Source of the DNA: Acidiphilium iwatense
Lineage (GTDB): Bacteria > Pseudomonadota > Alphaproteobacteria > Acetobacterales > Acetobacteraceae
Length of the DNA: 64,000 nucleotides
Reading direction: 5' to 3'
Assembly: GCF_021556475.1 (NCBI RefSeq)
Contig: NZ_JAKGBZ010000007.1
Coordinates: forward strand, 1-64,000
Position 1 is the stretch's first letter. Each line of letters starts with the position of its first letter. Below, one piece after another: positions 34,447 through 47,164 of this stretch. The notes under the pieces were generated by a model. It was not told the origin of the DNA. It did not search any database and saw only the letters and a program-made list of their open reading frames with translations. The position numbers were made by a program, and so were the translations under genes.

Positions 34447-34863
34447 TCAGTTCGATGCCGAGCGGTTTTTAGGAGAAACAGGATGCGTGCCATGCGAAAA
34501 TTGCTGACGGACCCGTTCGAGCCAGCCAGCCTTCATCCGTCCGTAGTGCAGCACGCGGGCCCGCTCGATGGTGACGAGGCCGCTCTGCATCATCTGGTCG
34601 AGCACCGGCAGGAATGCCTCGATCTTGTGCGTGGAATCAACAATCTCGATGATCACAGGGTAGTCGTCGGAAAACGGCAGGAGATGGCCTTCGTGCAGGC
34701 GCTTCGTGTGGCCGAAGCCCATCGGGCCGCGCAGCACCGTCGCACCGGCAAGCCCGTGCTCGCGAGCGGTGTTGACGATGGCGACGAACAGCGAACTCAG
34801 CCCGTAGCGGTCGGCCGAACTCGTGTAGATGCGGAGCAGCAGGGCTTCATGTGGAACATCCAT
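34447..34863 (-). CDS. DUF190 protein, PII-like fold (second copy)
   Basis: 138-residue protein with the DUF190 pattern: ALLLRIYTSSADRYG, LFVAIVNTAREHGLAGATVL, RGPMGFGHTKRLHEG, PVIIEIVDSTHKIEAFLPVL. DUF190 proteins have a PII-like ferredoxin fold and are often found with crcB-type fluoride channel genes or in transport operons; their ligand is unknown. It has a C-terminal extension of about 35 residues (MKAGWLERVRQQFSH) not present in its neighbour. It is the last gene of the long minus-strand operon, 24 bases after the other copy. Confidence 0.82.
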   Translation of the reverse strand: MDVPHEALLLRIYTSSADRYGLSSLFVAIVNTAREHGLAGATVLRGPMGFGHTKRLHEGHLLPFSDDYPVIIEIVDSTHKIEAFLPVLDQMMQSGLVTIERARVLHYGRMKAGWLERVRQQFSHGTHPVSPKNRSASN

Positions 34864-34887: not shown

Positions 34888-35244
34888 TCAGACGGACGTT
34901 GTGCCGCGTGGCGCGACGGGGACCAGCTTCCGCGCCTTTAGCGCCTCCATAGTGACCATGCCGGACTCGATCATCCGCTCGATCACAGGCAGGAAGGCGT
35001 CGATCTTCTCAGGCAGGTCGATGATCTCGACCACGATGGGCATGCGCGCCCCGGCATCGGGGTTCAGTCCCGAACGCAAGTTGCGCGAAAGGCCGAAGCC
35101 CATCGGCGCGGGTAGCACCGTGCCGCCGGCCAGCCCCTCCCTCATCGCGGTTTCGAGCAGCACGCGATAGAGCGGCTGGCCATCTTTCATGTCGTCGTCG
35201 CCCAGGAAGATCCTGAGCAGGACGGCGTCCTCCATGATGCGCAT
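34888..35244 (-). CDS. DUF190 protein, PII-like fold (first copy)
   Basis: 118-residue DUF190 protein: DAVLLRIFLGDDDMKDGQPL, YRVLLETAMREGLAGGTVLP, APMGFGLSRNLRSG, MPIVVEIIDLPEKIDAFLPV. Clearly a paralogue of the next gene but diverged, so the two may form a hetero-oligomer. Start ATG 35244 is where homology begins; the 236-codon frame upstream is the antisense of other sequence. A PII-like protein in an operon for a membrane redox complex suggests a regulatory subunit; this is inference. Confidence 0.85.
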   Translation of the reverse strand: MRIMEDAVLLRIFLGDDDMKDGQPLYRVLLETAMREGLAGGTVLPAPMGFGLSRNLRSGLNPDAGARMPIVVEIIDLPEKIDAFLPVIERMIESGMVTMEALKARKLVPVAPRGTTSV

Positions 35245-35323
35245 CGTGGCTCTCCCTTCAGTTCGGGTCGAACTGGCCCGAGCGACGACATTGTAATCAG
35301 CTAATGCCGTCACGCCGGCTCTG

Positions 35324-35881
35324 TCAGCTAAAATCGTCAAGAAAAGTATTTTCGCGTTTTCCCAGCGTCGGCCAGGCGTGTGGATCGCCAGCAAGCACGC
35401 GGATCGCGTCATGCGCGGCTTCCCGCCGCTCCGGCGGCAACATGGCGAGTAGGTGCGGCAGATGCGGCAGGCAGACCAGCGCAGCCGAGCCGGGTTCGCA
35501 CGTCGTTTGATCGTCGATCGCCGCCGCTTCGACCCGCGCGGCGATGACATCGAACTGACCGAGCCCAGCCTGATCGCCGGCGGAAGCGAGCAGGTCACGC
35601 ACGCGCCGCACCATCGCGACCAGGAAGGATTGCGTGCGACCCTCGATCAGGAACGCATCCGCCGCGCCAAGAAATCCCGAGTCGTGCGCGCATTGACCTC
35701 GATGGAGGAGCCGAGGCCCGGCGTGTCGATGAAGCGAAACCCGTAGCGCAGCAAGCCGTGCAAGCAGTTCGCCCCTGAGCGTGGCAGGCGGCCCTGGGGC
35801 TGCGCGATGAACGCGCAGCAGCGCGGCGAGTTCGAGCTTCAGCTGCTCATAGGCCGCAGGCGCCATGGCTGGTTCGGTCAT
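35324..35881 (-). pseudogene. Decayed dynamin-like GTPase gene
   Basis: An open frame of 185 codons coupled by ATGA to the MutS-like gene before it, but its middle makes sense only in another frame. The N terminus (AAYEQLKLELAALLRVHRAA) resembles the leading helix of bacterial dynamin-like GTPases. The minus strand then reads YGFRFIDTPGLGSSIEVNAR plus TTRDF in the second frame (35704-35739 region), a typical G3 motif of that family, and LGAADAFLI returns to the first frame. The P-loop segment is missing. Two small indels and a deletion explain this. If translated, the current product would lack GTPase motifs. Confidence 0.55.
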
Positions 35882-37413
35882 GGGGCTATTCCCATGCTCT
35901 GTGGGTCGTTGCCGTCTTCGCCGAAGATCTGCCGATAGAGATCACGACCGAAGCTGGTCGAAAGCGGCTCTCCTGGCAGAATACGGAAACTGCGTCGCCC
36001 GTCCGCCTCGCGCTCGGCGCGGAGGAAGCGAACCGTGACCTTGTTTGTCTTCATGTACGCTTCGGCGAAGGCGTACATGTGGGTCACGAAAATGACGCGC
36101 GCCCCGGTCTCGATCAGCGCGGTGACGATCTGGCGAGCGATCTCCGAGCCCTCGCGCTCGTTGGTCGCGGCGAAGGATTCGTTGAACAGGAACAGTGGCG
36201 CCCGGCCCGCCCGATCGACGATGCGGTTCATCCGGCGCAGCTCCTCGTCGAACTTGCCGCTATTCAGACCCGGATCCTCGCGTCGATGGTAATGGGTGAA
36301 CACGCCATCGCGCAAATCGGCGGAAAAGCGCCGAGCGGTGACGAACATTCCCGCCTGCATCATCATTTGCGCAAGCCCGATACTGCGCAGGAAGGTCGAT
36401 TTGCCACCCTGATTGGCGCCGGTAATCATCACGAATGCCGCATGATCCGCCGCGCAATCATTGCCAACGACTTCCCCTTCGATCGCCAGCGACAGGCAGG
36501 GATCGCGCAGATCGGTGAATTCGAGCCACTGCTCGCCGGGTGGAGCAATCTCGGGCTGGCACATCGGTGCCCGCTTCGTGGCCAGATGGGCGCGGAGATT
36601 GAGGCAGCCGATATAAAATCCGAGCTCAGCTCGAAGCATTGCAAAAAAGTCGAGGATATGATCGCATACCTGCGCCATCGTCTGCGCGGTCTCCGCCAGC
36701 GCTTCATCGCGCAGTTCGGAGAGCGCGCGCCCCCCAGCTTCGTCACGCGGATCAATGGCGAAATGATAGCTTGGCGGTCCGCTCTGTAACAAATCCTTGA
36801 GCCAGCCCCAGCGCCGCGGCACGAAATGGCGCAGCACATAGTCCTGGCCTTTATTGCCGGGGCCCAGCGAAGCGCTGAACAGCACGCCGGAGCGAAAATG
36901 CAACTGAGCCAAGTGTTGATCAACCATGGCGAGATAATCGGAATCAAGCTCGCGCATCAGCACGGCGCAAAGCCGGCGCAACCCACTAGCACGAAACGTC
37001 TCGGCATGGTGTGTCGCGAAGTCGGCGAGTTGGCCGATCACCCCGCGCAGCCCTTGCAGAAGCCGAACCGCGCCGCTCAGGGTGATTTCGGGGTGCCGGC
37101 TGGTCAGGCCGAAAAACAGGTTCTTGCGCAGCACTTCCAATGGCGCCATTGCCAGTTCATAGAGCGTGCGAATCAGGTTCTCATGCGCAATGCAATCGTC
37201 CAGAACGTCCTGCCGATGGCGAATCGTGTCGCGATCGTTGCGGAAGCCGGTGAGCACGACCTTGTGCGCGATCTCGCCGAGAAACTTGTCGCCGTCCGCC
37301 ATCGCGGCGAACAGGGACTCCATCTCGAGATCCTGCACGAGATCGGCGATGCCGGCCGGAGGCTGGGCCTCGGGGTCGAAGTCGCGGGCGGGGAACATCA
37401 GCCGCGCCTTCAT
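35878..37413 (-). CDS. MutS-like ATPase, second of two
   Basis: 511-residue protein with a MutS-type ABC ATPase at the C terminus: Walker A MITGANQGGKSTFLRSIG (residues 330-347), Walker B region LFLFNESFAATNEREGSEIA (408-427), where the usual Asp-Glu is Asn-Glu, and VIFVTHMYAFAEAY as the switch histidine. The N-terminal 300 residues are helical, with no mismatch-binding domain (no FxE motif), so it is not MutS1. It overlaps its neighbours on both sides by ATGA, firmly inside the redox operon. It likely pairs with the other copy as MutS family proteins do. Function unknown. Confidence 0.85.
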   Translation of the reverse strand: MKARLMFPARDFDPEAQPPAGIADLVQDLEMESLFAAMADGDKFLGEIAHKVVLTGFRNDRDTIRHRQDVLDDCIAHENLIRTLYELAMAPLEVLRKNLFFGLTSRHPEITLSGAVRLLQGLRGVIGQLADFATHHAETFRASGLRRLCAVLMRELDSDYLAMVDQHLAQLHFRSGVLFSASLGPGNKGQDYVLRHFVPRRWGWLKDLLQSGPPSYHFAIDPRDEAGGRALSELRDEALAETAQTMAQVCDHILDFFAMLRAELGFYIGCLNLRAHLATKRAPMCQPEIAPPGEQWLEFTDLRDPCLSLAIEGEVVGNDCAADHAAFVMITGANQGGKSTFLRSIGLAQMMMQAGMFVTARRFSADLRDGVFTHYHRREDPGLNSGKFDEELRRMNRIVDRAGRAPLFLFNESFAATNEREGSEIARQIVTALIETGARVIFVTHMYAFAEAYMKTNKVTVRFLRAEREADGRRSFRILPGEPLSTSFGRDLYRQIFGEDGNDPQSMGIAP

Positions 37414-38981
37414 GAACGCCGCTCTTTCAGACGCCGATAGGTGACGCCGTATTTCTCCGCGATGGAGAGCGCGTAGGCGAGGCCGTCGGCCGGACGGCGA
37501 ACGACCTTGAAACTGCGCTCTGCCGGATCGTCGGGTTGGACCATGCTGGTGACGCTGACGGTTTCGGGCCCAAGGACGGAAAGCTCGTCCATGAAGGTGA
37601 CGCAGACGGCAAGCGCGCCACGTGCAATGATCCGGCGCAGCACCGCCTCGGCGAGGAAACTCGCATCCTTCAGTGCGGTCGAATTGAAGATCTCGTTGAG
37701 GACGATGAGGCTGTCCGAAGTCGCGGCGTCGAGGATGGCGCGAATGCGCACCAGATCGTCATGCAGCTTGCCGCGCAGCGTGGTCAGCACCTCCTCGCGC
37801 TCGAAATGGGCGAAGATCCGGTCGAGCAGATGCAGCCGCGCGGATCGTCCTGGCACCGTGCAGCCGAGATTGGCGAAATAGTGCATCTGGCCGACCATGC
37901 GGGCGAAGGTCGTCTTGCCACCCTGATTCGGACCGGTGACGACGAAGATGCGCTCCTTGTCTTCGAGATGGAAATCGTTGGTGACGACATGCCGCTTTTC
38001 CACGCGCAGCTTCTCCGCCAGCGCGAGGTCGAAACCGGACGTGACGCGGATCACATGGTCGGCCACAAGCTCGGGATAGCAGAAATCCAGACCATTCGCG
38101 GCGAGCCGGCCAGTGAAGTCGAGCCAGACGATGTAGAAATGGCTCTCGCGGTCGAAGCGCCGGATCACCGGATCGATGAAATCTCGGTGGCTGGCGACGA
38201 ATGCATGAAGCTTCGCGAAGATCGGCGGATTCAGAAGCGCGACTCCATTGAGGATTTCGGCCTCGACATGATTCATCGTCACCGTCGACCGGTTGCTCTC
38301 GAATTCGTGGGATTTGACCCTGCCTTGCTGAAATTTTGCGAAGAGGCCGGCGATCACCGCGTTGTAGTCGGGCTCCACTTCGAAATCCCGCACCGTAACC
38401 ATGCTGTCGCGGATCAGCACCGTATAGCGGATGGCGCCGAGTGCTGAGCGGTTCTCCGCTACTCCATCGCGCAGCGTGCCGAATCCGGGCGATGCGACAT
38501 GCTCGCGCAGCGCCGTGCGGAACGTCGTGAGTCCTTTGGAGTACAGGGAGCAGGCATCAAGTCCGTCCGCCAGCGCAACGAGACCGTCACAGTAATGGCC
38601 GATGGCGGTCACGAACCGCGCCGCCTGCTGGTGCGGGTAGTGGGATTTCTCTGCAAAATCAGCTTGTTCGCGCACCCGGCGCATCTCGGTGGCGAAACGG
38701 CGGAGCACGGCACCGGTCGTCTGGTCGGATGTGTCGCGCAGCACGGCCTGCCGGTAGTCGATCACTGCCCGGTCGTGAGGTACGCAGGAGAACAGCGGCT
38801 TGAGATCATAAGCCTCGAATCCTGCCGTGACGGCCGCCAGGATCCGGTCGATCGCAAGATCGGCAAAAAGGGTCGAAACATCCTGCGGCGGCGGCATGGC
38901 GTCCATAATCGCGGGGAACAGGATGCTGACCGGATGCATACCGTCTCGTTCCGCCATCAAGTTCGGCCCTACAAGTTGCAT
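37410..38981 (-). CDS. MutS-like ATPase, first of two
   Basis: 523-residue MutS-related protein, distant from its neighbour. Walker A IFVVTGPNQGGKTTFARMVG (residues 345-364), Walker B SLIVLNEIFNSTALKDASFL (424-443), again Asn-Glu in place of Asp-Glu, and AVCVTFMDELSVLG at the switch position, where the usual His is replaced. The first 340 residues are mostly helical with no DNA mismatch domain. ATG 38981 overlaps the preceding small gene by 13 bases; ATG 38957 (AERDGMHPV) or 38939 would avoid it. Probably forms a heterodimer with the next gene product. No mutL or other repair gene is nearby. Confidence 0.85.
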   Translation of the reverse strand: MQLVGPNLMAERDGMHPVSILFPAIMDAMPPPQDVSTLFADLAIDRILAAVTAGFEAYDLKPLFSCVPHDRAVIDYRQAVLRDTSDQTTGAVLRRFATEMRRVREQADFAEKSHYPHQQAARFVTAIGHYCDGLVALADGLDACSLYSKGLTTFRTALREHVASPGFGTLRDGVAENRSALGAIRYTVLIRDSMVTVRDFEVEPDYNAVIAGLFAKFQQGRVKSHEFESNRSTVTMNHVEAEILNGVALLNPPIFAKLHAFVASHRDFIDPVIRRFDRESHFYIVWLDFTGRLAANGLDFCYPELVADHVIRVTSGFDLALAEKLRVEKRHVVTNDFHLEDKERIFVVTGPNQGGKTTFARMVGQMHYFANLGCTVPGRSARLHLLDRIFAHFEREEVLTTLRGKLHDDLVRIRAILDAATSDSLIVLNEIFNSTALKDASFLAEAVLRRIIARGALAVCVTFMDELSVLGPETVSVTSMVQPDDPAERSFKVVRRPADGLAYALSIAEKYGVTYRRLKERRS

Positions 38982-39145: not shown

Positions 39146-41125
39146 TCAGAACAGGGAGATCACAAGAATGACGACGAGCAACAGGCCGAGGATTGCGAGA
39201 TAGAGATTCAGATGGCCCGATTGTAGAACGCGGATGCGCCGGGCGAGGTTGGTGATGAACCGCACCAGGGGTGCGAACAGCAGAGGACCGAAGATCGGCG
39301 CAACGTCGTGCTCGAAGCTGAGCCGCCTGACGAAATAATCTGAGACGCTGGTCTCCCGCCCTGCTTCGGCGCTCGGGCGATAGACGAAACTGTAGAAGGT
39401 GCGGAGCGAATTCGAGAATGTCAGTGCGGTGGTCGCGGCGCGGACCGGGTCCTGCGGGCTGCCGCCATACCAGACCGGACTGCGCCGCACCCTCAGACGT
39501 TTCGAGGCCAGGAGCAGCCCGATCGGCAACAGGGCGAGCAGAGGCATCGCGATGATCAGCTTGGAGGGCGAGATGAAGGCGAATTTGTCGGTCAGCGGCA
39601 CCAATATCCAGCCGGCGGTCATGTGCGCGGCGGCATCGGCGCCGAACCGCGCGAGATCGGTCTGGTTGAGCGCGCCGAGCCAGATCGGCATCCCGACCGC
39701 GAGCGCGAGAACGCCAAGGCCGAGAGCGCCGACAGCGGCGGCATGGCCGATCCTCACCCGGACCGGCGTACCGTCCGACCGGCCCAGCAGGCCGATGCCG
39801 AACAGCTTGACGAAGGTGGCGAAGGCGATCGCGGCGGTGAGCGCCAATCCCGCGCCGGACAGCACGAGGGTCAGCCGGCCGGCGAGATCGGGCAGATGGA
39901 AACCCTGGAACACGGTCTCGAACATGAACCATTCGGAGACGAACCCGGCCTGCGGCGGCATCGCGGCAAGGCTCATCGCCGCGAACAATGCGCCGGCGCC
40001 GAAGATCAGCCGGTTCGCCCGCAACGCGCCGCGCTGGACGATGGCGTAGTCGCCGGTGGCCAGGAAAATCCCGTCGGCGCTCAGGAACAGGCAGCCCTTG
40101 GCGAGGGCGTGGCCCGCGAGGTGCAGCAGCGCCACGGTGAAGGCGAGGCCGGCGAGCATCGGTTCGTGGCCGGCGCGGAACAGCAGGCAGGTGCCGAGCG
40201 CGATCACCGCGATCGAGGCGTTTTCGGCCGAGGAAAAGGCCAGCAAGGCGCGCCAATCCTCCTGCTGGAATGCGTAGAGCGTGGTCAGAATGGCGCTGAC
40301 CACGCCGAGCGCGCAGAGCAGAATGCCGAAACCCTGGTCGAACGATTGCGGCGCCCAGCTCAACATGCCGCGTGCGAGACCGAAGAACGCGGCGTTCAGG
40401 ATGACGCCGGACATGATCGCCCCGGTGGCGCCCGATCCGGCGCCATAGGCGCCGGGAAACCATTCGTAGAACGGCAGCAACCCGAGCTTGGCGCCGAAAC
40501 CGAGGATCAGAAGCACGCCGACGATCGCGGCGACCGCGCCGGGCAGATGTGCCGACACCGCGTGGAATCCCGCGAAACCAAGGCCGCCGCCTGCCGTGCC
40601 GAGTGCCAGGATCGCGGCCAGCAAGGCGATCGCGCCGACCTCCAGCAGCCCGAGCATGAACAGCGCGCGCTGACCGGATTTGGTCGCCAGACTTTCGGCA
40701 AGGATCATCATCGCACCGCCCAGGCTCATCATTTCCCAGGCGATCAGGAACTGCGCGCCGTTGCGCAGACCGAACACTCCGAGCGCGCCGAGCAGGCTCA
40801 TCGCGAGGCCGAACAGCCAGCTTCGCCCACCGTGTCGGGCGGGTGAGCCGAGCAAAGCGACCAGCGTGGCGGGCGCCAGCCCGAATCCCATCAGCCAGAG
40901 CGCATCGGGGGTCAGGCGGAATTTTGATCCGCTGTCGGCGATGCGCAGGAACGGCAATGCTACGGCGGAGGTTCCGTCCGGCAAAGCGAGGATCGCCGCA
41001 GCGATGCCGGCGAGGCAGCCGAGGGCTGCAATCAGGCGGCCGGCGGTTGGCGCCACGCCGGTGAGCGCGAGCAGCGCCGCGAGGCACCAGAGCGTGGCGG
41101 CGGCGGCGATCAGGTCATTCGCCAT
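39146..41125 (-). CDS. Hydrogenase-4/complex I-like antiporter subunit (HyfB-like)
   Basis: 659-residue NuoL/MrpA-type proton channel subunit with 14-16 transmembrane helices. Proton-path residues are visible: the TM5 glutamate in FLIAWEMMSLGGAMM and the TM7 lysine in LILGFGAKLGLLPFYEWFPG. FVSEWFMFETVFQGF follows as in HyfB, and the C terminus has a last transmembrane anchor (YLAILGLLLVVILVISLF). It overlaps the end of the fused Fe-S subunit gene by 11 bases. It should couple electron transfer to ion pumping. Confidence 0.9.
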   Translation of the reverse strand: MANDLIAAAATLWCLAALLALTGVAPTAGRLIAALGCLAGIAAAILALPDGTSAVALPFLRIADSGSKFRLTPDALWLMGFGLAPATLVALLGSPARHGGRSWLFGLAMSLLGALGVFGLRNGAQFLIAWEMMSLGGAMMILAESLATKSGQRALFMLGLLEVGAIALLAAILALGTAGGGLGFAGFHAVSAHLPGAVAAIVGVLLILGFGAKLGLLPFYEWFPGAYGAGSGATGAIMSGVILNAAFFGLARGMLSWAPQSFDQGFGILLCALGVVSAILTTLYAFQQEDWRALLAFSSAENASIAVIALGTCLLFRAGHEPMLAGLAFTVALLHLAGHALAKGCLFLSADGIFLATGDYAIVQRGALRANRLIFGAGALFAAMSLAAMPPQAGFVSEWFMFETVFQGFHLPDLAGRLTLVLSGAGLALTAAIAFATFVKLFGIGLLGRSDGTPVRVRIGHAAAVGALGLGVLALAVGMPIWLGALNQTDLARFGADAAAHMTAGWILVPLTDKFAFISPSKLIIAMPLLALLPIGLLLASKRLRVRRSPVWYGGSPQDPVRAATTALTFSNSLRTFYSFVYRPSAEAGRETSVSDYFVRRLSFEHDVAPIFGPLLFAPLVRFITNLARRIRVLQSGHLNLYLAILGLLLVVILVISLF

Positions 41126-41903
41126 CGATCCGCCCCTGGTGGACGCGTTGGGGCATCCGGTCGAGGAACAGCAGCAGCGCCTCGATCAGCGCGGCGGGAT
41201 TAGGTGGGCAGCCCGGCAAATAGAGATCGACCGGCAGCACCGCATCAAGGCCGTTCAGGCACGGCCCATCCGGCGCGATGCCGCCGGAGACAGCACAGCT
41301 TCCCGAGGCCATCACCCAGCGCGGCTCGGGCATCGCCTTATAGGTGCGGAGCAGCGGCTCCAGCATGGCTTTGGTCACCGGGCCGGTTACTAACAACAAG
41401 TCAGCAAAGCGCGGCGAGGGCGTGAAGAAGATGCCGAGCCGGTGCAGATTGTAGAACGGGTTGTTCAGCGCCTGAAGTTCGGATTCGCAACCGTTGCAGG
41501 ACCCGGCATCGACATGGCGAACATGCAGGCTGCGCCGGAAGCCTCGGCGCGATGGCGCGGCGGGATGGGCGGCGGGTTCGGCCGGCGCTGTGATCAGATC
41601 GGCGCGGTTGCGCACTCCGAAGGCCCAGTCATGGCTTTCGGAAAGCGCGCCGGTCGGGCAGACCTCGACGCAGCGCTGACAGACCACGCATTTGCCGTAA
41701 TCCAGCACGGGGTTTTGCGCCGATGCCAGGGCAATCGCGCCGGTCGGGCAGGCGGCGGCGCAATCGGCGCAGCCATCGGCGCATTGTGCCGCATCAAGGC
41801 GCGGCATTCCGAGTCCGCCGGCCTGACCATCAGGTCCCTCGCCCAGTGGCCAGCGCGTGGTCGCCTGGCCTTCGGCGAGTCCGATCAGGGTCCAGAGCGC
41901 CAT
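41115..41903 (-). CDS. Fused ferredoxin-NuoB-type Fe-S subunit (HyfH-HyfI-like)
   Basis: 262-residue fusion. The N-terminal part is a 2x[4Fe-4S] ferredoxin like NuoI/HyfH (CADGCADCAAACPTGAIAL and CVVCQRCVEVCPTGAL). The C-terminal part is the NuoB/HyfI small subunit with the proximal cluster ligands: DAGSCNGCESELQAL, MASGSCAVSGG and LPGCPPNPAALIEALLLFL. In typical Hyf/Hyc/Ech complexes these are two genes. All cluster cysteines are kept, so the electron wire seems intact although the catalytic subunit lacks NiFe ligands. Confidence 0.9.
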   Translation of the reverse strand: MALWTLIGLAEGQATTRWPLGEGPDGQAGGLGMPRLDAAQCADGCADCAAACPTGAIALASAQNPVLDYGKCVVCQRCVEVCPTGALSESHDWAFGVRNRADLITAPAEPAAHPAAPSRRGFRRSLHVRHVDAGSCNGCESELQALNNPFYNLHRLGIFFTPSPRFADLLLVTGPVTKAMLEPLLRTYKAMPEPRWVMASGSCAVSGGIAPDGPCLNGLDAVLPVDLYLPGCPPNPAALIEALLLFLDRMPQRVHQGRIDGE

Positions 41904-41913
41904 GCCACTCTCC

Positions 41914-43350
41914 TCATCGTGCGCAGCCGGAAATCGTGAGGCCGAAACTCGCCTCGTTGATCGCGTAGTCCATCATGTTGGTTTCGTGAACCGTGTAGGG
42001 AAACACCCGCCAGTTCGAGAACGAGGGCGACTTGATCTTGACCCGCGCCAGGCGGCCGGCGGCGTCGAAATGCACGGCGTAGATCAGCGTGCCGCGCGGC
42101 GATTCCGCCCAGCCGAGCGCCTCGGACTGAGCTACCGGCGGGCAGGGAACACGGATCGGCCCATCCGGCAGCACCGCGAGGGCGCGCCGGATCATCGTGA
42201 TGCTGGCGTCGATTTCGGCGATGCGCACCCGCGCGCGCGCATTGGCGTCGCCGTCCTGATGCCCGGCAACAGTAAGGTTCAGATTGTCGTCGGCATAGGC
42301 GGCGTAAGGGTGGTCGCGCCGCAGATCGCGATCGAGGCCGGAGGCGCGGGCGATCGGGCCGGTGGCGCCCTGATCGAACGCCACCGCGCGGGGCAGCGGA
42401 CCGGTGGTGGCGAGTCGGTCGAAATAACTCTCCGAACGATCGAGCCGGGCGATATAGCGGCGGATCGGCTCGCGCAGCGCATCCAGCGTCTCGGAGAGCC
42501 GGTCGGTGTCGAGGATGCGGCGGAGTCCGCCGGGCGCGATCGCGCCGCGCAGAAACCGGCTGCCGGTGACGCGCGCGTTGATCTGTTTGACCCGTTCGGC
42601 GAGCAGAACGCCTTCCGCGTGGCCAACTTTCAAAGTCGTGGTGTCGGCGAGATGGCCGAGATAGTGCAGATGATTGTAGAGCCGTTCGAGTTCGACGATG
42701 ATAACGCGCTGGTAGAGCGCGCGATCCGGCACGGTGACGCGGCAGGCCGCCTCGATCGCCTGCGAATAGGCGAGCGCGTGGGCCGCGCTGCCGACCGCCG
42801 AAACGCGCTCGGCGAGCACCGCGCCGGTTTCGATGTCGCAACCGACGAACCGCTCCTCCATGCCGCGATGCTTGAGAAACAGATGCGGGACGTAATGCAG
42901 GATCGCCTCGCCGATGTAGAAGAAGGTGAATTCGGCGGACTCGACGACCCCCGCGCGCACTGGTCCGAACGGCAGGAACTGCACCGCTTCGCCCTCGACA
43001 TCCGGTAATTGCCGCCAATCGTCCGATTCCGCGCGGCCGAGCGGCTGGATCAGCGGAAACGGTTCGGGATGGCCGGTAAAACGGATTGCGTGCCGATCGG
43101 CGATTTCGCGCTCGTACCAACCGAGCAACGGCCAGATTTCGGCGAGGCTCGGAACCTCATTGCCACCCTGGATTTGCCATTGATCGAACACCTGCGCGCC
43201 GGAAGGCGCCGATACGTAGCGCAATTCGGGCGCATCGTCGTCGCCGGTCAGCGCGTAGGCCATGATCATCCGGCCGCCTTCGGTGCGCAGGGTTTTTGCG
43301 GCATCCCGCAGCATGGCGGCCTCGATCGAGCGAACGCTCGGCGCGTTCAT
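41914..43350 (-). CDS. NuoCD/HyfG-like large subunit lacking NiFe cysteines (Ehr-type)
   Basis: 478-residue fusion of a NuoC-like N terminus and a NuoD/hydrogenase-large-subunit domain. LFLKHRGMEERFVGCD is the usual HRGxE motif. At the first NiFe site, where hydrogenases read RxCGxC, this protein has ERVSAVGSAAHALAYSQAIE, with Ser and Gly for the two cysteines. The C-terminal CxxC is also absent: it ends ASFGLTISGCAR. The active site therefore cannot hold NiFe, as in the energy-converting hydrogenase-related (Ehr) complexes. Start ATG 43350 overlaps the hyfF-like stop (ATGA); a 58-codon upstream extension is not protein-like. Confidence 0.88.
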   Translation of the reverse strand: MNAPSVRSIEAAMLRDAAKTLRTEGGRMIMAYALTGDDDAPELRYVSAPSGAQVFDQWQIQGGNEVPSLAEIWPLLGWYEREIADRHAIRFTGHPEPFPLIQPLGRAESDDWRQLPDVEGEAVQFLPFGPVRAGVVESAEFTFFYIGEAILHYVPHLFLKHRGMEERFVGCDIETGAVLAERVSAVGSAAHALAYSQAIEAACRVTVPDRALYQRVIIVELERLYNHLHYLGHLADTTTLKVGHAEGVLLAERVKQINARVTGSRFLRGAIAPGGLRRILDTDRLSETLDALREPIRRYIARLDRSESYFDRLATTGPLPRAVAFDQGATGPIARASGLDRDLRRDHPYAAYADDNLNLTVAGHQDGDANARARVRIAEIDASITMIRRALAVLPDGPIRVPCPPVAQSEALGWAESPRGTLIYAVHFDAAGRLARVKIKSPSFSNWRVFPYTVHETNMMDYAINEASFGLTISGCAR

Positions 43351-44864
43351 GCCGGACGCCTCGGGACGACAGGCGACGTGGTTTGCGCCTGCTGGCGGGC
43401 CGCGACAGCCGGAACGCCCGCGATGTCGTGCGCGACGGTCTGAAAGTCGCGCCAGAAGCCGGAAGGCCACCACAGCCCGAAGATCAGCAGCGGCACGAGC
43501 GCCAACCACATCGGCGCCACGCACCAGCGGCTGACCGGCGCGGGGGCCGAATCCGGCTCGGCTCCGTCATGATACATCAGGCGGAAATGATTGAGGAATC
43601 CGATGAAGATCACGATCAGCAGGACCGCCATGACGATCGCTGCCCAGAGCCCGATGCCGGCGAAACCGGCGCGCAGTATGGTGAGTTCGCTGGCGAACAG
43701 ACCGAATGGCGGCGCGCCGGTGATCGCGACCGCGCCGGCCAGCCACAGCGCGCCGGAGACCGGAAAATGCCGCGCGAACGATGTGATCCGCGCCATCGCC
43801 TTGGCGCCGTAGCTGCGCATCGCGTTGCCGGCGCCGAAGAACATCAGCGATTTGTTCAGCGAATGGTTGAGCATGTGATACATCGCCCCGGCGACGCCGA
43901 GCGGGCCGCCGAAGCCGAAGCCGAGGGCGACGATTCCCATGTGTTCGACGCTGGAATAGGCCATCAGCCGCTTCACGCCGCGCTGGCGGACGATGAACAA
44001 GGCCGCCACCACGAGCGAGACCACCCCGAAGGCGACCAGGATCTGCCCCGGCAGGGCGACCATCGCGGCGCCGTGCAGAACCGCGAGATACCGCACGATT
44101 CCAACCATCGCCGTGTTCAGCAAGGCGCCCGAGAGCATCGCCGAAACCGGCGTCGGACCTTCGCTGTGCGCATCCGGCAGCCAGGTGTGCATCGGGGCGA
44201 GACCGACCTTGGTGCCGTAGCCGACCAGCACGAGCAGAAAACTCAGCAGAAGCAGTGGGTGATTCATCCGTGGCGCGGCATGGCGCAAAATCGCCCAGGT
44301 CATGTCGTAGGTCGGGCCGAGCACGAAGGTTCCGTTCCAGTAGAACAGCACGGTGCCGAGCAGAGCGAGGGTGATGCCCGCCGAGACGACGATGATGTAT
44401 TTCCAGCCGGCCTCGATCGCTTCCGGCGCCTGCTCGAAGGCGACCAGAAAGGTGCTGACCACCGTGGTCATTTCGATCGCGATCCAGTAGACGCCTGGAT
44501 TGTTCATCAGGGGTGCTATGAAGATCGTCAGGGCGAAGGTCGCGAACAACTGGTAGAAGCGCGGCAGGCGCTCATCCTCGTCCAGCGTGCGCATGTAGCC
44601 CAGCGCGTAGATCGAGGCGAGCAGATAGACGATGGCCGCGCACAGGATGATCCAGGCGCCGAGCGGATCGACGATGACATAGTGCGACAGGAACGTCACA
44701 CCGTGGGGCGGCGCCGTCAGCGCCAACGCGATCGACGCCGCGAACGAAACAATGCTTGCCAGAAGATTGACGATTTCGGCGAATTCCCGCCGCGGCGCGA
44801 CCAGCATCGCCAGCACCGCGAGGGTCGGCGCCGCAACGAGAACGATGGCGAACAGGCCGGTCAT
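43347..44864 (-). CDS. Hydrogenase-4/complex I-like antiporter subunit (HyfF-like)
   Basis: 505-residue NuoM/N-type subunit with about 14 transmembrane helices. The TM5 glutamate is in YWIAIEMTTVVSTFLVA and the TM7 lysine in GYGTKVGLAPMHTWLPDAHS, followed by EGPTPVSAMLSGALLNTAM. SSVEHMGIVALGFGFGG is the HyfF type. The gene abuts the hyfE-like gene (stop and start adjacent) and overlaps the large subunit gene by ATGA. Second putative ion-pumping subunit of the complex. Confidence 0.92.
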   Translation of the reverse strand: MTGLFAIVLVAAPTLAVLAMLVAPRREFAEIVNLLASIVSFAASIALALTAPPHGVTFLSHYVIVDPLGAWIILCAAIVYLLASIYALGYMRTLDEDERLPRFYQLFATFALTIFIAPLMNNPGVYWIAIEMTTVVSTFLVAFEQAPEAIEAGWKYIIVVSAGITLALLGTVLFYWNGTFVLGPTYDMTWAILRHAAPRMNHPLLLLSFLLVLVGYGTKVGLAPMHTWLPDAHSEGPTPVSAMLSGALLNTAMVGIVRYLAVLHGAAMVALPGQILVAFGVVSLVVAALFIVRQRGVKRLMAYSSVEHMGIVALGFGFGGPLGVAGAMYHMLNHSLNKSLMFFGAGNAMRSYGAKAMARITSFARHFPVSGALWLAGAVAITGAPPFGLFASELTILRAGFAGIGLWAAIVMAVLLIVIFIGFLNHFRLMYHDGAEPDSAPAPVSRWCVAPMWLALVPLLIFGLWWPSGFWRDFQTVAHDIAGVPAVAARQQAQTTSPVVPRRPA

Positions 44865-45545
44865 TCAGCCCACCAGCCGGCGGAGGTGCAGCGTGCTCGT
44901 GCTGCCGACCTGCCCCATCAGATAGCGCACCAGAACGCCGAAACAGACCACTACGATCAGCAGGTCGAACAGGATGACGAGTTCGAGCAGCATGGGCATT
45001 CCGGGAACCAGGATCTGGGTGCCGAGAAAAATCCCGTTCTCGAGCACCAGCAGCCCAAGCACCTGGCTGACCGCCTCGTGGCGCGCCGCTAACATCAGGT
45101 AGCCGATCAGCTTCATCGACAGCATCACGGTCAGTGCGAGAATGACGACCTTGCTGGACAGGTCGAGCGATGTACCGATGTGTTCGGCGACTGCAAGCGC
45201 GAAGACGACCGAAATCGCTCCGATGACGAGACTCGAACTCGGTTGCAGGACCGGGACGATTTCGCGCTCCACATTCATCCGCCGCACGATGCGCAGCAGC
45301 AGGTAGGGCAGCAGCAGGCCGCGGAACAAGGCGGTCAGGATCGCGATGACGTAAAGTTCGGGATAGCGATCGATATAGCCGACGGAGGCGGACAGAATCG
45401 CGATCAGCCAGGATTGCGCGGCGAACGCCATCAGGTAATGTCGCATCCAGCGCGAACCGAGCATGACGAAGGCAAGCAGCAGGCTGGCGATCGCGATCAG
45501 GCTGAAGATCGAGGCGACGACCGGGCTCGCGTGAAATGCGGTCAT
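44865..45545 (-). CDS. Hydrogenase-4 component E-like membrane subunit (HyfE/NuoK-type)
   Basis: 226-residue membrane protein with six or seven helices, like HyfE whose C-terminal half matches NuoK. VSQVLGLLVLENGIFLGTQI carries the conserved glutamate, and RGLLLPYLLLRIVRR and SMKLIGYLMLAARHE are HyfE-like. The gene starts four bases after the hyfC-like stop and ends directly against hyfF. It helps connect the antiporter modules to the redox part. Confidence 0.88.
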   Translation of the reverse strand: MTAFHASPVVASIFSLIAIASLLLAFVMLGSRWMRHYLMAFAAQSWLIAILSASVGYIDRYPELYVIAILTALFRGLLLPYLLLRIVRRMNVEREIVPVLQPSSSLVIGAISVVFALAVAEHIGTSLDLSSKVVILALTVMLSMKLIGYLMLAARHEAVSQVLGLLVLENGIFLGTQILVPGMPMLLELVILFDLLIVVVCFGVLVRYLMGQVGSTSTLHLRRLVG

Positions 45546-45549
45546 CGGA

Positions 45550-46497
45550 TCAGCCGATCTGCGTGCTGATGATCGCCAGCACCGCGAGCAGGAACGACGC
45601 CGCCAGCGGTTCCTGATAGCGGTAGAATCGCAGGCGCGACTGGATCGTATCCACCACCACGATCGCGCCGGCGACCAGAACGAATTTTACGATTACCGCA
45701 ATGCCGGCGCCGATCACCCCGACCGCGAGCCCCCTGGAGGACATGAACCACGGCAGGGCCAGAACGTTGCAGAAAATGGTATAGAGGACGAACTGCTTCA
45801 TCATCGACGCCCATTTCAGAAGTCCGTAAAGCGGGCCGGAATATTCCAGAATCCGCGCTTCCTCGATCATGTAGACTTCGATATGGGTGCTCGAATGGAT
45901 CGGCAGCTTGTCGGTTTCCACCGTAAGCAGAATGAAGAAAGCGGCGACCAGGAACAGATGGGCGGGACCGAGATAGACCGCGGGCTTCGCGACCAGCAGA
46001 TGATTGACCACGAAGGGCAGCATCGAGCGGGCGAACAGCGTTATCCCGACAAACACGAGGATCAGGGTCGGCTCGGCGAGGATCGAAATGATCGCGGAAC
46101 GGCTCGACCCGATGCCGCCATAGGCGCTGCCGGAATCGAGGCCGGCGAGCGTTATCATGAACGAACCGAGCGTCAGGATCAGGCCGCCGCCGAGAATATC
46201 GCCCATGTTCGACAGCGGCAGCGGGAAATTGGTCAGCACCGGAATCAGCATCGGCACCGTCATCATGCAGACGAACGCGACGACGGGCGCGATCCAGAAC
46301 AGCCAGGATGCCGTTTCGGGCACGACGATCTGCTTATGGAACAGTTTCCACAGATCGCGATAGGGCTGAAAAATGCCCGGCCCCCGGCCGCGCTGCACGC
46401 GCTCCTCGAACTGGACGATGCAGCCCTGGATGAGGGGAGCCGCGCCGATGGTGAACCCGACCTGAGCGATCTGGAGAACGACATCGCGCACGGTCAT
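45550..46497 (-). CDS. NuoH/HyfC-like membrane anchor subunit
   Basis: 315-residue NuoH-type subunit with eight or more transmembrane helices. The cytoplasmic loop GRGPGIFQPYRDLWKLFHKQ is diagnostic of HyfC/HycD, and LPIHSSTHIEVYMIEEARIL holds the conserved glutamates near the quinone-side cavity. Start ATG 46497 (TVRDVVLQIAQVGF) is preferred; ATGs at 46515 and 46533 are in frame. First gene of the operon. Confidence 0.9.
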   Translation of the reverse strand: MTVRDVVLQIAQVGFTIGAAPLIQGCIVQFEERVQRGRGPGIFQPYRDLWKLFHKQIVVPETASWLFWIAPVVAFVCMMTVPMLIPVLTNFPLPLSNMGDILGGGLILTLGSFMITLAGLDSGSAYGGIGSSRSAIISILAEPTLILVFVGITLFARSMLPFVVNHLLVAKPAVYLGPAHLFLVAAFFILLTVETDKLPIHSSTHIEVYMIEEARILEYSGPLYGLLKWASMMKQFVLYTIFCNVLALPWFMSSRGLAVGVIGAGIAVIVKFVLVAGAIVVVDTIQSRLRFYRYQEPLAASFLLAVLAIISTQIG

Positions 46498-46533
46498 CGG
46501 CAGTGTGTTCCACATCGGGCGCGGGTCGCACAC

Positions 46534-47164
46534 ACAGCCACCCTCGTGAACAATCGTCGTTCAGACACCTGTTCGCCTCCGCAAATACGGACCTGAACAG
46601 GAGTCATCAGCCCCAAGGGCGGTTTTACGGCGAACCCCATCGCCTAAGCGGTATCGTGGTATCGAGATCGGCGCGTGTCAATCACTTTCAGTCAGAGCAC
46701 ACCTTTGCCTCCGCGTACCGGGCCCCGCCAACATCGGGGCGCGGACACTGGGGTTACACTGCCTTTGACCGCACTGCCCTGATATCGGCGGACCAGTTCG
46801 CCGCCCCCGCGATCCTGCGCCTCTTGGCGCTGGTGAGCATGGTGATGCTTGCGTCGCGACCCGCAAATCGGGGCTTGCGTGGCTCGGCTATTCCCTGGGC
46901 CTGTACCGGCCGGCGGGAGAGACGGAGGTGTCCGCGTCGGCGGCCCGATGCCGTGTGACGGGTGAGATCCCGGTTTGGTCTCGCGCGCAAAGCTGACGGC
47001 GCGCGCGGCGTTGTTTCGGTCGGTAAGCGTTTCTGTCGGAGTGGCCGGTGCCAGGGTAGCGCTGCGCACCGCAACCTCATCTGCACCTGCGCGCCACTCT
47101 CGGACTACGCGGAGGCGGCGGAGTGAGGGTAGCAATGGCACGCTTCAAGATAAGATCGGATGAT
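46534..47164. other. 630-base spacer without a recognisable gene
   Basis: Upstream region of the redox operon; its promoter should lie near 46540-46650. Open frames on both strands (to 151 codons) have no recognisable motif, no good start sites and differ in composition from real genes nearby. It may hold decayed mobile DNA, given the integrase fragment to the right, but I cannot identify any. Confidence 0.5.

Follow-up and report, generated by a model that had tools for sequence, protein, structure and literature searches.

An Ehr-type operon preceded by a fluoride riboswitch in Acidiphilium iwatense encodes a large subunit without NiFe-binding cysteines

A six-gene operon for a hydrogenase-related complex

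The window analyzed here comprises the first 64,000 nucleotides of contig NZ_JAKGBZ010000007.1 of Acidiphilium iwatense, and contains on its reverse strand an operon of six subunits in the fixed order HyfC-HyfE-HyfF-large subunit-ferredoxin/NuoB fusion-HyfB. The first gene (45550..46533), whose true start is probably about 36 bases further in, encodes a HyfC/NuoH-like membrane subunit (PF00146, E = 1e-31) for which the closest solved chain is 7z0s_D, subunit 4 of formate hydrogenlyase (FHL). It is followed by genes for a HyfE-like membrane subunit (44865..45545), which matches the NCBIfam hydrogenase 4 membrane subunit with an E value of 9e-15 that is below the model cut-off, and for a HyfF/antiporter-like membrane subunit (43347..44864; PF00361, E = 8e-49). 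The fourth gene (41914..43350) encodes a NuoCD/HyfG-like large subunit of 478 amino acids, whose N-terminal part resembles NuoC and whose C-terminal part resembles NuoD. The last two genes encode a fusion of a two-cluster ferredoxin to a NuoB/HycG-like small subunit (41115..41903; PF01058, E = 2e-28, and Fer4 matches), and a HyfB/antiporter-like membrane subunit (39146..41125; NCBIfam hydrogenase 4 subunit B, E = 5e-86, also below the model cut-off). Antiporter-like membrane subunits of the Mrp/NuoLMN type adjoin the large and small subunits, the arrangement by which Ehr complexes are recognized.

According to the initial annotation, an Fe-S small subunit and a ferredoxin had retained all their cysteines. 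The cysteines are indeed all kept, eight of the ferredoxin type and four of the N2/proximal type, each in 99-100% of the sequences of the clade, but both parts reside within one fused protein. Every clade member that was inspected has this ferredoxin/NuoB fusion, and the first motif of the ferredoxin has the spacing CX3CX2CX3C. This level of conservation argues for an intact electron path up to the NiFe-less site, as had been proposed. Charged residues of the membrane subunits are conserved as well: E131, K219, K298, H330, H334, K338 and E393 of HyfF are kept in 96-100% of the clade. Also kept are E131, K213, H335, H339, K343, E398 and K440 of HyfB, and E154, E206, E219, E225 and E230 of HyfC, which are glutamates of the E-channel region. 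The conservation of these pump residues is a sign of constraint, not of turnover.

The large subunit lacks the cysteines that bind NiFe

We aligned the large subunit with E. coli HyfG/HycE, in which the NiFe ligands reside in the motifs RVCGIC and DPCYSC, and with NuoCD. The initial annotation had described an L1 site without cysteines and the absence of a C-terminal CxxC, and the alignment bears out both observations. Instead of RxCGxC, the L1 site reads R182-V-S184-A-V-G187-S, and the L2 cysteine columns contain T472 and G475 (T472-I-S-G475-C-A-R), so that the four ligand columns are occupied by S184, G187, T472 and G475. The large subunit has four cysteines in total, at positions 171, 203, 403 and 476, and none of them (0/4) is located on a ligand column. 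As replacement ligands, C171, C203 and C403 were rejected for this reason, and so was C476, which lies one residue past the fourth ligand position and corresponds to a Thr of HycE. Cysteines placed in both the L1 and the L2 site, which would have refuted the initial annotation, are thus not seen in the alignment.

Like the window protein, none of the 87 aligned homologues of the same clade has a cysteine at any of the four ligand columns, and the loss of the ligands is therefore not due to chance. The residues that take their place are well defined: the first column is Ser in 78/87 homologues, the second is Gly or Asp in 86/87, and the third (Thr or Ser) and fourth (Gly) are constant in this sense in 87/87. 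We also rejected a pseudogene or sequencing error, because the reading frame is intact, identity to the congeneric orthologues is 73-83% and the protein is strongly conserved. The alignment places the C-terminus of the large subunit at the mature end of HycE, without the cleavable tail that HycI removes. Moreover, HypD is absent from the genome, which is 99.9% complete, and the same search finds HypD in E. coli; the NiFe cofactor can therefore not be assembled by the known route. An invariant Arg occupies position 132 in the clade; in HycE, NuoD and the sister clade, the residue at this site is His.

Fold and phylogenetic position

The AlphaFold2 model of the large subunit has a mean pLDDT of 89.8, and its low-confidence parts correspond to the active-site loops 130-136 and 474-478. 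The model matches FHL subunit 5 (7z0s_E, HycE) with a Z score of 44.6 (471 residues, identity 26%); for E. coli NuoCD, the Z score is about 41. A maximum-likelihood tree contained four groups: type F, which is the clade of the window protein (window clade), type N, which is a second cysteine-less clade, NuoD, and HycE/HyfG. An Alicyclobacillus sequence covering less than 10% of the columns, probably as the result of a frame slip in extraction, was left out. Type F and type N are each monophyletic (support 100/100 and 100/97, respectively), and together they form a group (99/92) apart from HycE/HyfG and NuoD, a placement to be read with some caution because the branches that lead to NuoD and HycE are long.

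Three cysteine-less large subunits are encoded in the genome, i.e. the window protein and those on G000:C75 (RVSGDST) and G000:C35 (RIAGGAT). Hence, the cysteine loss is real but, being an Ehr hallmark that two paralogues share, it is not peculiar to the window protein. Judged from its sequence and fold, the large subunit is of the Ehr type and belongs to a hydrogenase-related complex, and the lack of cysteines is common to both Ehr clades. The third of these subunits (G000:C35:16339-16527, L147; RIAGGATVAHA...ISFGAVDL) has its own small subunit.

A fluoride riboswitch precedes the operon

A fluoride riboswitch aptamer (RF01734, crcB motif) is located at positions 46591..46653, directly upstream of the first gene of the operon and on the same strand (Rfam score 53.8 bits, gathering threshold 34, E = 4e-12). 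The initial annotation correctly interpreted the complex as a non-NiFe system with an intact electron path, but missed this element, which lies outside the region it covered and is the most informative feature of the locus. The genome of 4.16 Mb contains two RF01734 elements, and the second one heads genes for CrcB, a dynamin-family GTPase and DUF190. Between positions 46550 and 46600 of the reverse strand, the RNA could form another hairpin (CCTGTTC...GAACAGG) that overlaps with the aptamer's 3' strand; no T-run follows it, and control may therefore be translational rather than exerted by a terminator.

A survey of about 85,000 species genomes yielded 206 relatives of the large subunit, of which the best 80 were taken; these 80 are labelled Alpha-, Beta- and Gammaproteobacteria and Acidobacteria. 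Among these best 80 of 206 loci, the gene order HyfC-E-F-large-Fd/NuoB-HyfB is invariant wherever the genes are present. For riboswitch detection, 24 aptamers were used to build a covariance model, as a regular expression had missed many copies. In all 70 loci that have enough upstream DNA, a riboswitch lies ahead of HyfC in the same orientation. These loci span many genera and are partly non-independent (L125/L126 are duplicates and several are Paraburkholderia); the other 10 of the 80 loci end at a contig edge and are outside the 70. The distance to HyfC is within 250 bases in 66 loci, 473-536 bases in 3 and 1267 bases in 1. In this last locus (L142, 5547-6877), the riboswitch is followed by crcB, a HIT-family gene, DUF190 and then the six Ehr genes, so that a fluoride channel and the Ehr complex are apparently joined in one transcription unit. 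The riboswitch is also found at the operon in congeneric genomes and in Burkholderia/Caballeronia.

A chance match can be dismissed, as the aptamer scores 20 bits above the cut-off and occurs in the same place in 70/70 homologues. It is not a general trait of Ehr genes either, since no fluoride riboswitch was found before the operons of the sister Ehr clade (0/10 loci). Likewise, in 11 genomes with FHL-type homologues the hydrogenase has no such element up to 56 kb away; for 10 of these 11, intact RxCGxC and DPCxxC motifs were confirmed.

Two further observations concern individual loci. On an Alicyclobacillus plasmid (L045, 11534-13236), a homologue of the large subunit (36%) has a fluoride riboswitch of its own, and the other five subunits are absent from the 25 kb covered; here, the large subunit may serve in fluoride defence by itself. 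In the metagenome-assembled genome YP4.bin76, three copies of the operon (L066, L072 and L082) are present in one bin, so that either the operon is multicopy or the bin is mixed.

Genes in the neighbourhood

Downstream of the operon and on the same strand, the window contains a pair of MutS genes, a dynamin remnant and two DUF190 genes. In the paired MutS-like proteins (35878-38981, reverse strand), the ATPase domain V is the only domain detected by Pfam, and pairs of this kind recur in 25/44 full loci of the clade. The first of the pair (37410..38981; PF00488, E = 2e-20) is co-directional with the operon and has homologues that adjoin the operon in Burkholderia/Caballeronia, and the second (35878..37413; PF00488, E = 1e-19) has homologues of 37-49% identity in the islands of these genera. 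A tblastn search with the riboswitch-linked dynamin of the genome identified a broken remnant of a dynamin-family GTPase (35363..35754, reverse strand) between MutS and DUF190, which consists of frame-shifted pieces (79% over 29 aa, E = 7e-11, relative to the intact gene on G000:C137). An ORF of 185 aa (35324-35881) was considered a remnant and not a gene because it matches no family and its stretch contains dynamin fragments. Of the two DUF190 genes, also on the reverse strand, the ORF at 34888..35598 has its domain at residues 127-220 (PF02641, E = 1e-24), with the real start probably inside the ORF, and the other is located at 34447..34863 (PF02641, E = 2e-33).

Fluoride-resistance genes neighbour the operon in the clade. 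Among 44 full-length loci, CrcB or CLC is present in 31, DUF190 in 33, MutS in 25 and dynamin in 15; the same queries gave no match in the sister-clade loci. In Burkholderia, the operon resides in islands with several fluoride riboswitches and genes for CrcB, a CLC channel, inorganic pyrophosphatase, a HAD hydrolase, phosphoglycerate mutase, dynamin, DUF190 and paired MutS proteins, and in Caballeronia riboswitches and the MutS pair are found at the operon. No homologue of FdhF or HycI was found in the 80 loci, for which at most 10 kb on either side was covered.

Possible function of the complex

The operon is almost certainly a fluoride-riboswitch Ehr and not a hydrogenase. Exposure to fluoride has been tied to acidification of the cytoplasm, and fluoride export to the proton-motive force (PMC11139923). 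The leading explanation, to which we give an even chance, is that the complex is a fluoride-induced, proton-translocating machine that would support both pH and the gradient for export. Fluoride would enter as HF, acidify the cytoplasm and drain the proton-motive force, and its binding to the RNA would switch on the operon. Electrons would be donated by a low-potential soluble carrier, by analogy with HycF/MbhN most likely ferredoxin. They would pass through the ferredoxin domain of the fusion protein and then the N2-like cluster, and reach an acceptor in the large subunit, within its remodelled pocket (S184, G187, T472, G475 and the clade-specific R132). This passage would drive the export of protons via HyfC/E/F/B, and the restored internal pH and gradient would then power the CrcB/Fluc and CLC-F exporters. 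Complexes of this type could, however, either build a proton gradient or be driven by one. Induction by the riboswitch is not proof of a role in pH balance, because genes that simply stand in for inhibited enzymes are under fluoride riboswitches too. Should the pump model be true, fluoride would be answered by export plus an added energy-converting machine that sustains the export gradient, which would suit acid habitats where HF enters freely.

A quinone had been named as a candidate electron partner in the initial annotation, and this option is weakened by the residues found at the site. The His column of the complex I motif GPxHPxxHG is Val, Leu, Met or Phe in 84/87 clade sequences (Val or Leu in 77/87), and the column of the catalytic Tyr is Gly or Ala in 87/87. 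By these residues, the large subunit is one with neither a hydrogenase site nor a canonical quinone site, and it could use quinone in a mode other than through His and Tyr. Such non-canonical binding would make the complex a fluoride-induced ferredoxin:quinone oxidoreductase, a short complex I running under fluoride stress. The carriers of the large subunit are largely aerobic, quinone-using genera, the fold and arrangement are the same as those of NuoCD-NuoB-NuoH, and the small-residue pocket (Ser/Gly/Thr/Gly) leaves room, all of which count for quinone use; given the replacement of both catalytic residues, we nevertheless consider it somewhat unlikely.

The loss of both sites would also fit a redox-dead large subunit in a complex that works as a regulated proton/cation antiporter, its Fe-S chain only sensing the redox state, and Na+/H+ antiporters are indeed a common class of genes under fluoride riboswitches (PMC11139923). 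We regard this as unlikely, as the near-complete retention of the 12 Fe-S cysteines argues for selected electron transfer. The strict riboswitch control, the invariant Arg132 and the clade-specific charges in HyfB, HyfF and HyfC could alternatively indicate that the complex itself moves fluoride, the anion being bound at the remodelled site around Arg132 or in the antiporter-like subunits, and F-/HF being expelled by redox or proton coupling. This is quite unlikely: most full loci (31/44) already have a dedicated exporter, homology to a known fluoride site was not recognized, and the charges of the antiporter-like subunits are those normally seen. Likewise quite unlikely, and speculative, is its extreme form, in which the former NiFe site would have been remade for fluoride extrusion, redox energy would directly drive F-/HF export by a primary fluoride pump, and the whole clade would be dedicated to fluoride defence. 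Finally, the view that the operon encodes a true formate hydrogenlyase or NiFe hydrogenase, which the subunit make-up, the closest solved relatives and the published label (PMC2864571, PMC11139923) might imply, is refuted for the window clade by the absence of NiFe ligands in all 87 sequences, of the C-terminal extension, of FdhF and HycI from the 80 loci and of HypD from the genome.

Comparison with known systems

Ehr complexes without NiFe cysteines are known, and their function has been described as unknown (PMC10284858; PMC6349859); coupling of a cytoplasmic redox reaction to ion translocation has been proposed. The occurrence of the riboswitch in 70/70 loci gives this branch a concrete and cheaply testable role. 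A limited literature search found no report linking Ehr to fluoride, which is weak evidence of novelty. The window clade shares the group 4 hydrogenase-like make-up, the antiporter-like subunits and the lack of CxxC NiFe ligands with the Ehr complexes of comammox Nitrospira, Riflemargulisbacteria and Methylacidiphilum (PMC10284858, PMC6349859, PMC6688271). It differs from them by the fluoride riboswitch, the order C-E-F-G-(Fd/NuoB)-B and the ferredoxin fused to NuoB, and further by the CX3CX2CX3C motif of the first cluster and by an Arg where the others have the His of the HP position.

The sister Ehr clade, represented in the same genome by G000:C75, belongs to the same superfamily and also has a cysteine-less large subunit, which is 34% identical. 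In contrast to the window clade, most of its loci have the order B-C-E-F-G-NuoB, the ferredoxin is not fused, and 10/10 loci are without a fluoride riboswitch or fluoride-resistance neighbours. Its motif RVSGDST...SYSGxDL equals the motifs reported for Acidithiobacillus, which has two hydrogenase-like clusters, one of them without L1 and L2 signatures (PMC6002666).

With complex I (NuoCD, NuoB, NuoH and the antiporter-like subunits), the operon has in common the fold, the cysteines to an N2-like cluster and the proton-channel residues, but it lacks an NADH module and the catalytic quinone His and Tyr are replaced. The subunits are also homologous to those of E. coli formate hydrogenlyase and hydrogenase 4 (Hyc, Hyf), which provide the best structural match (7z0s_E). 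Unlike the window clade, FHL has the four cysteines, FdhF and a maturation protease, and no fluoride riboswitch. An earlier study reported that the crcB motif precedes mutS and "genes encoding formate hydrogen lyase" (PMC2864571), and a 2024 review reads this link as formate oxidation (PMC11139923). The published formate hydrogen lyase of the fluoride riboswitch regulons probably corresponds to the same genes as the window clade. The label implies formate oxidation, of which the sequences examined here are incapable; our analysis corrects the published reading of a shift to formate, as these genes are without the known NiFe ligands and without a formate dehydrogenase nearby.
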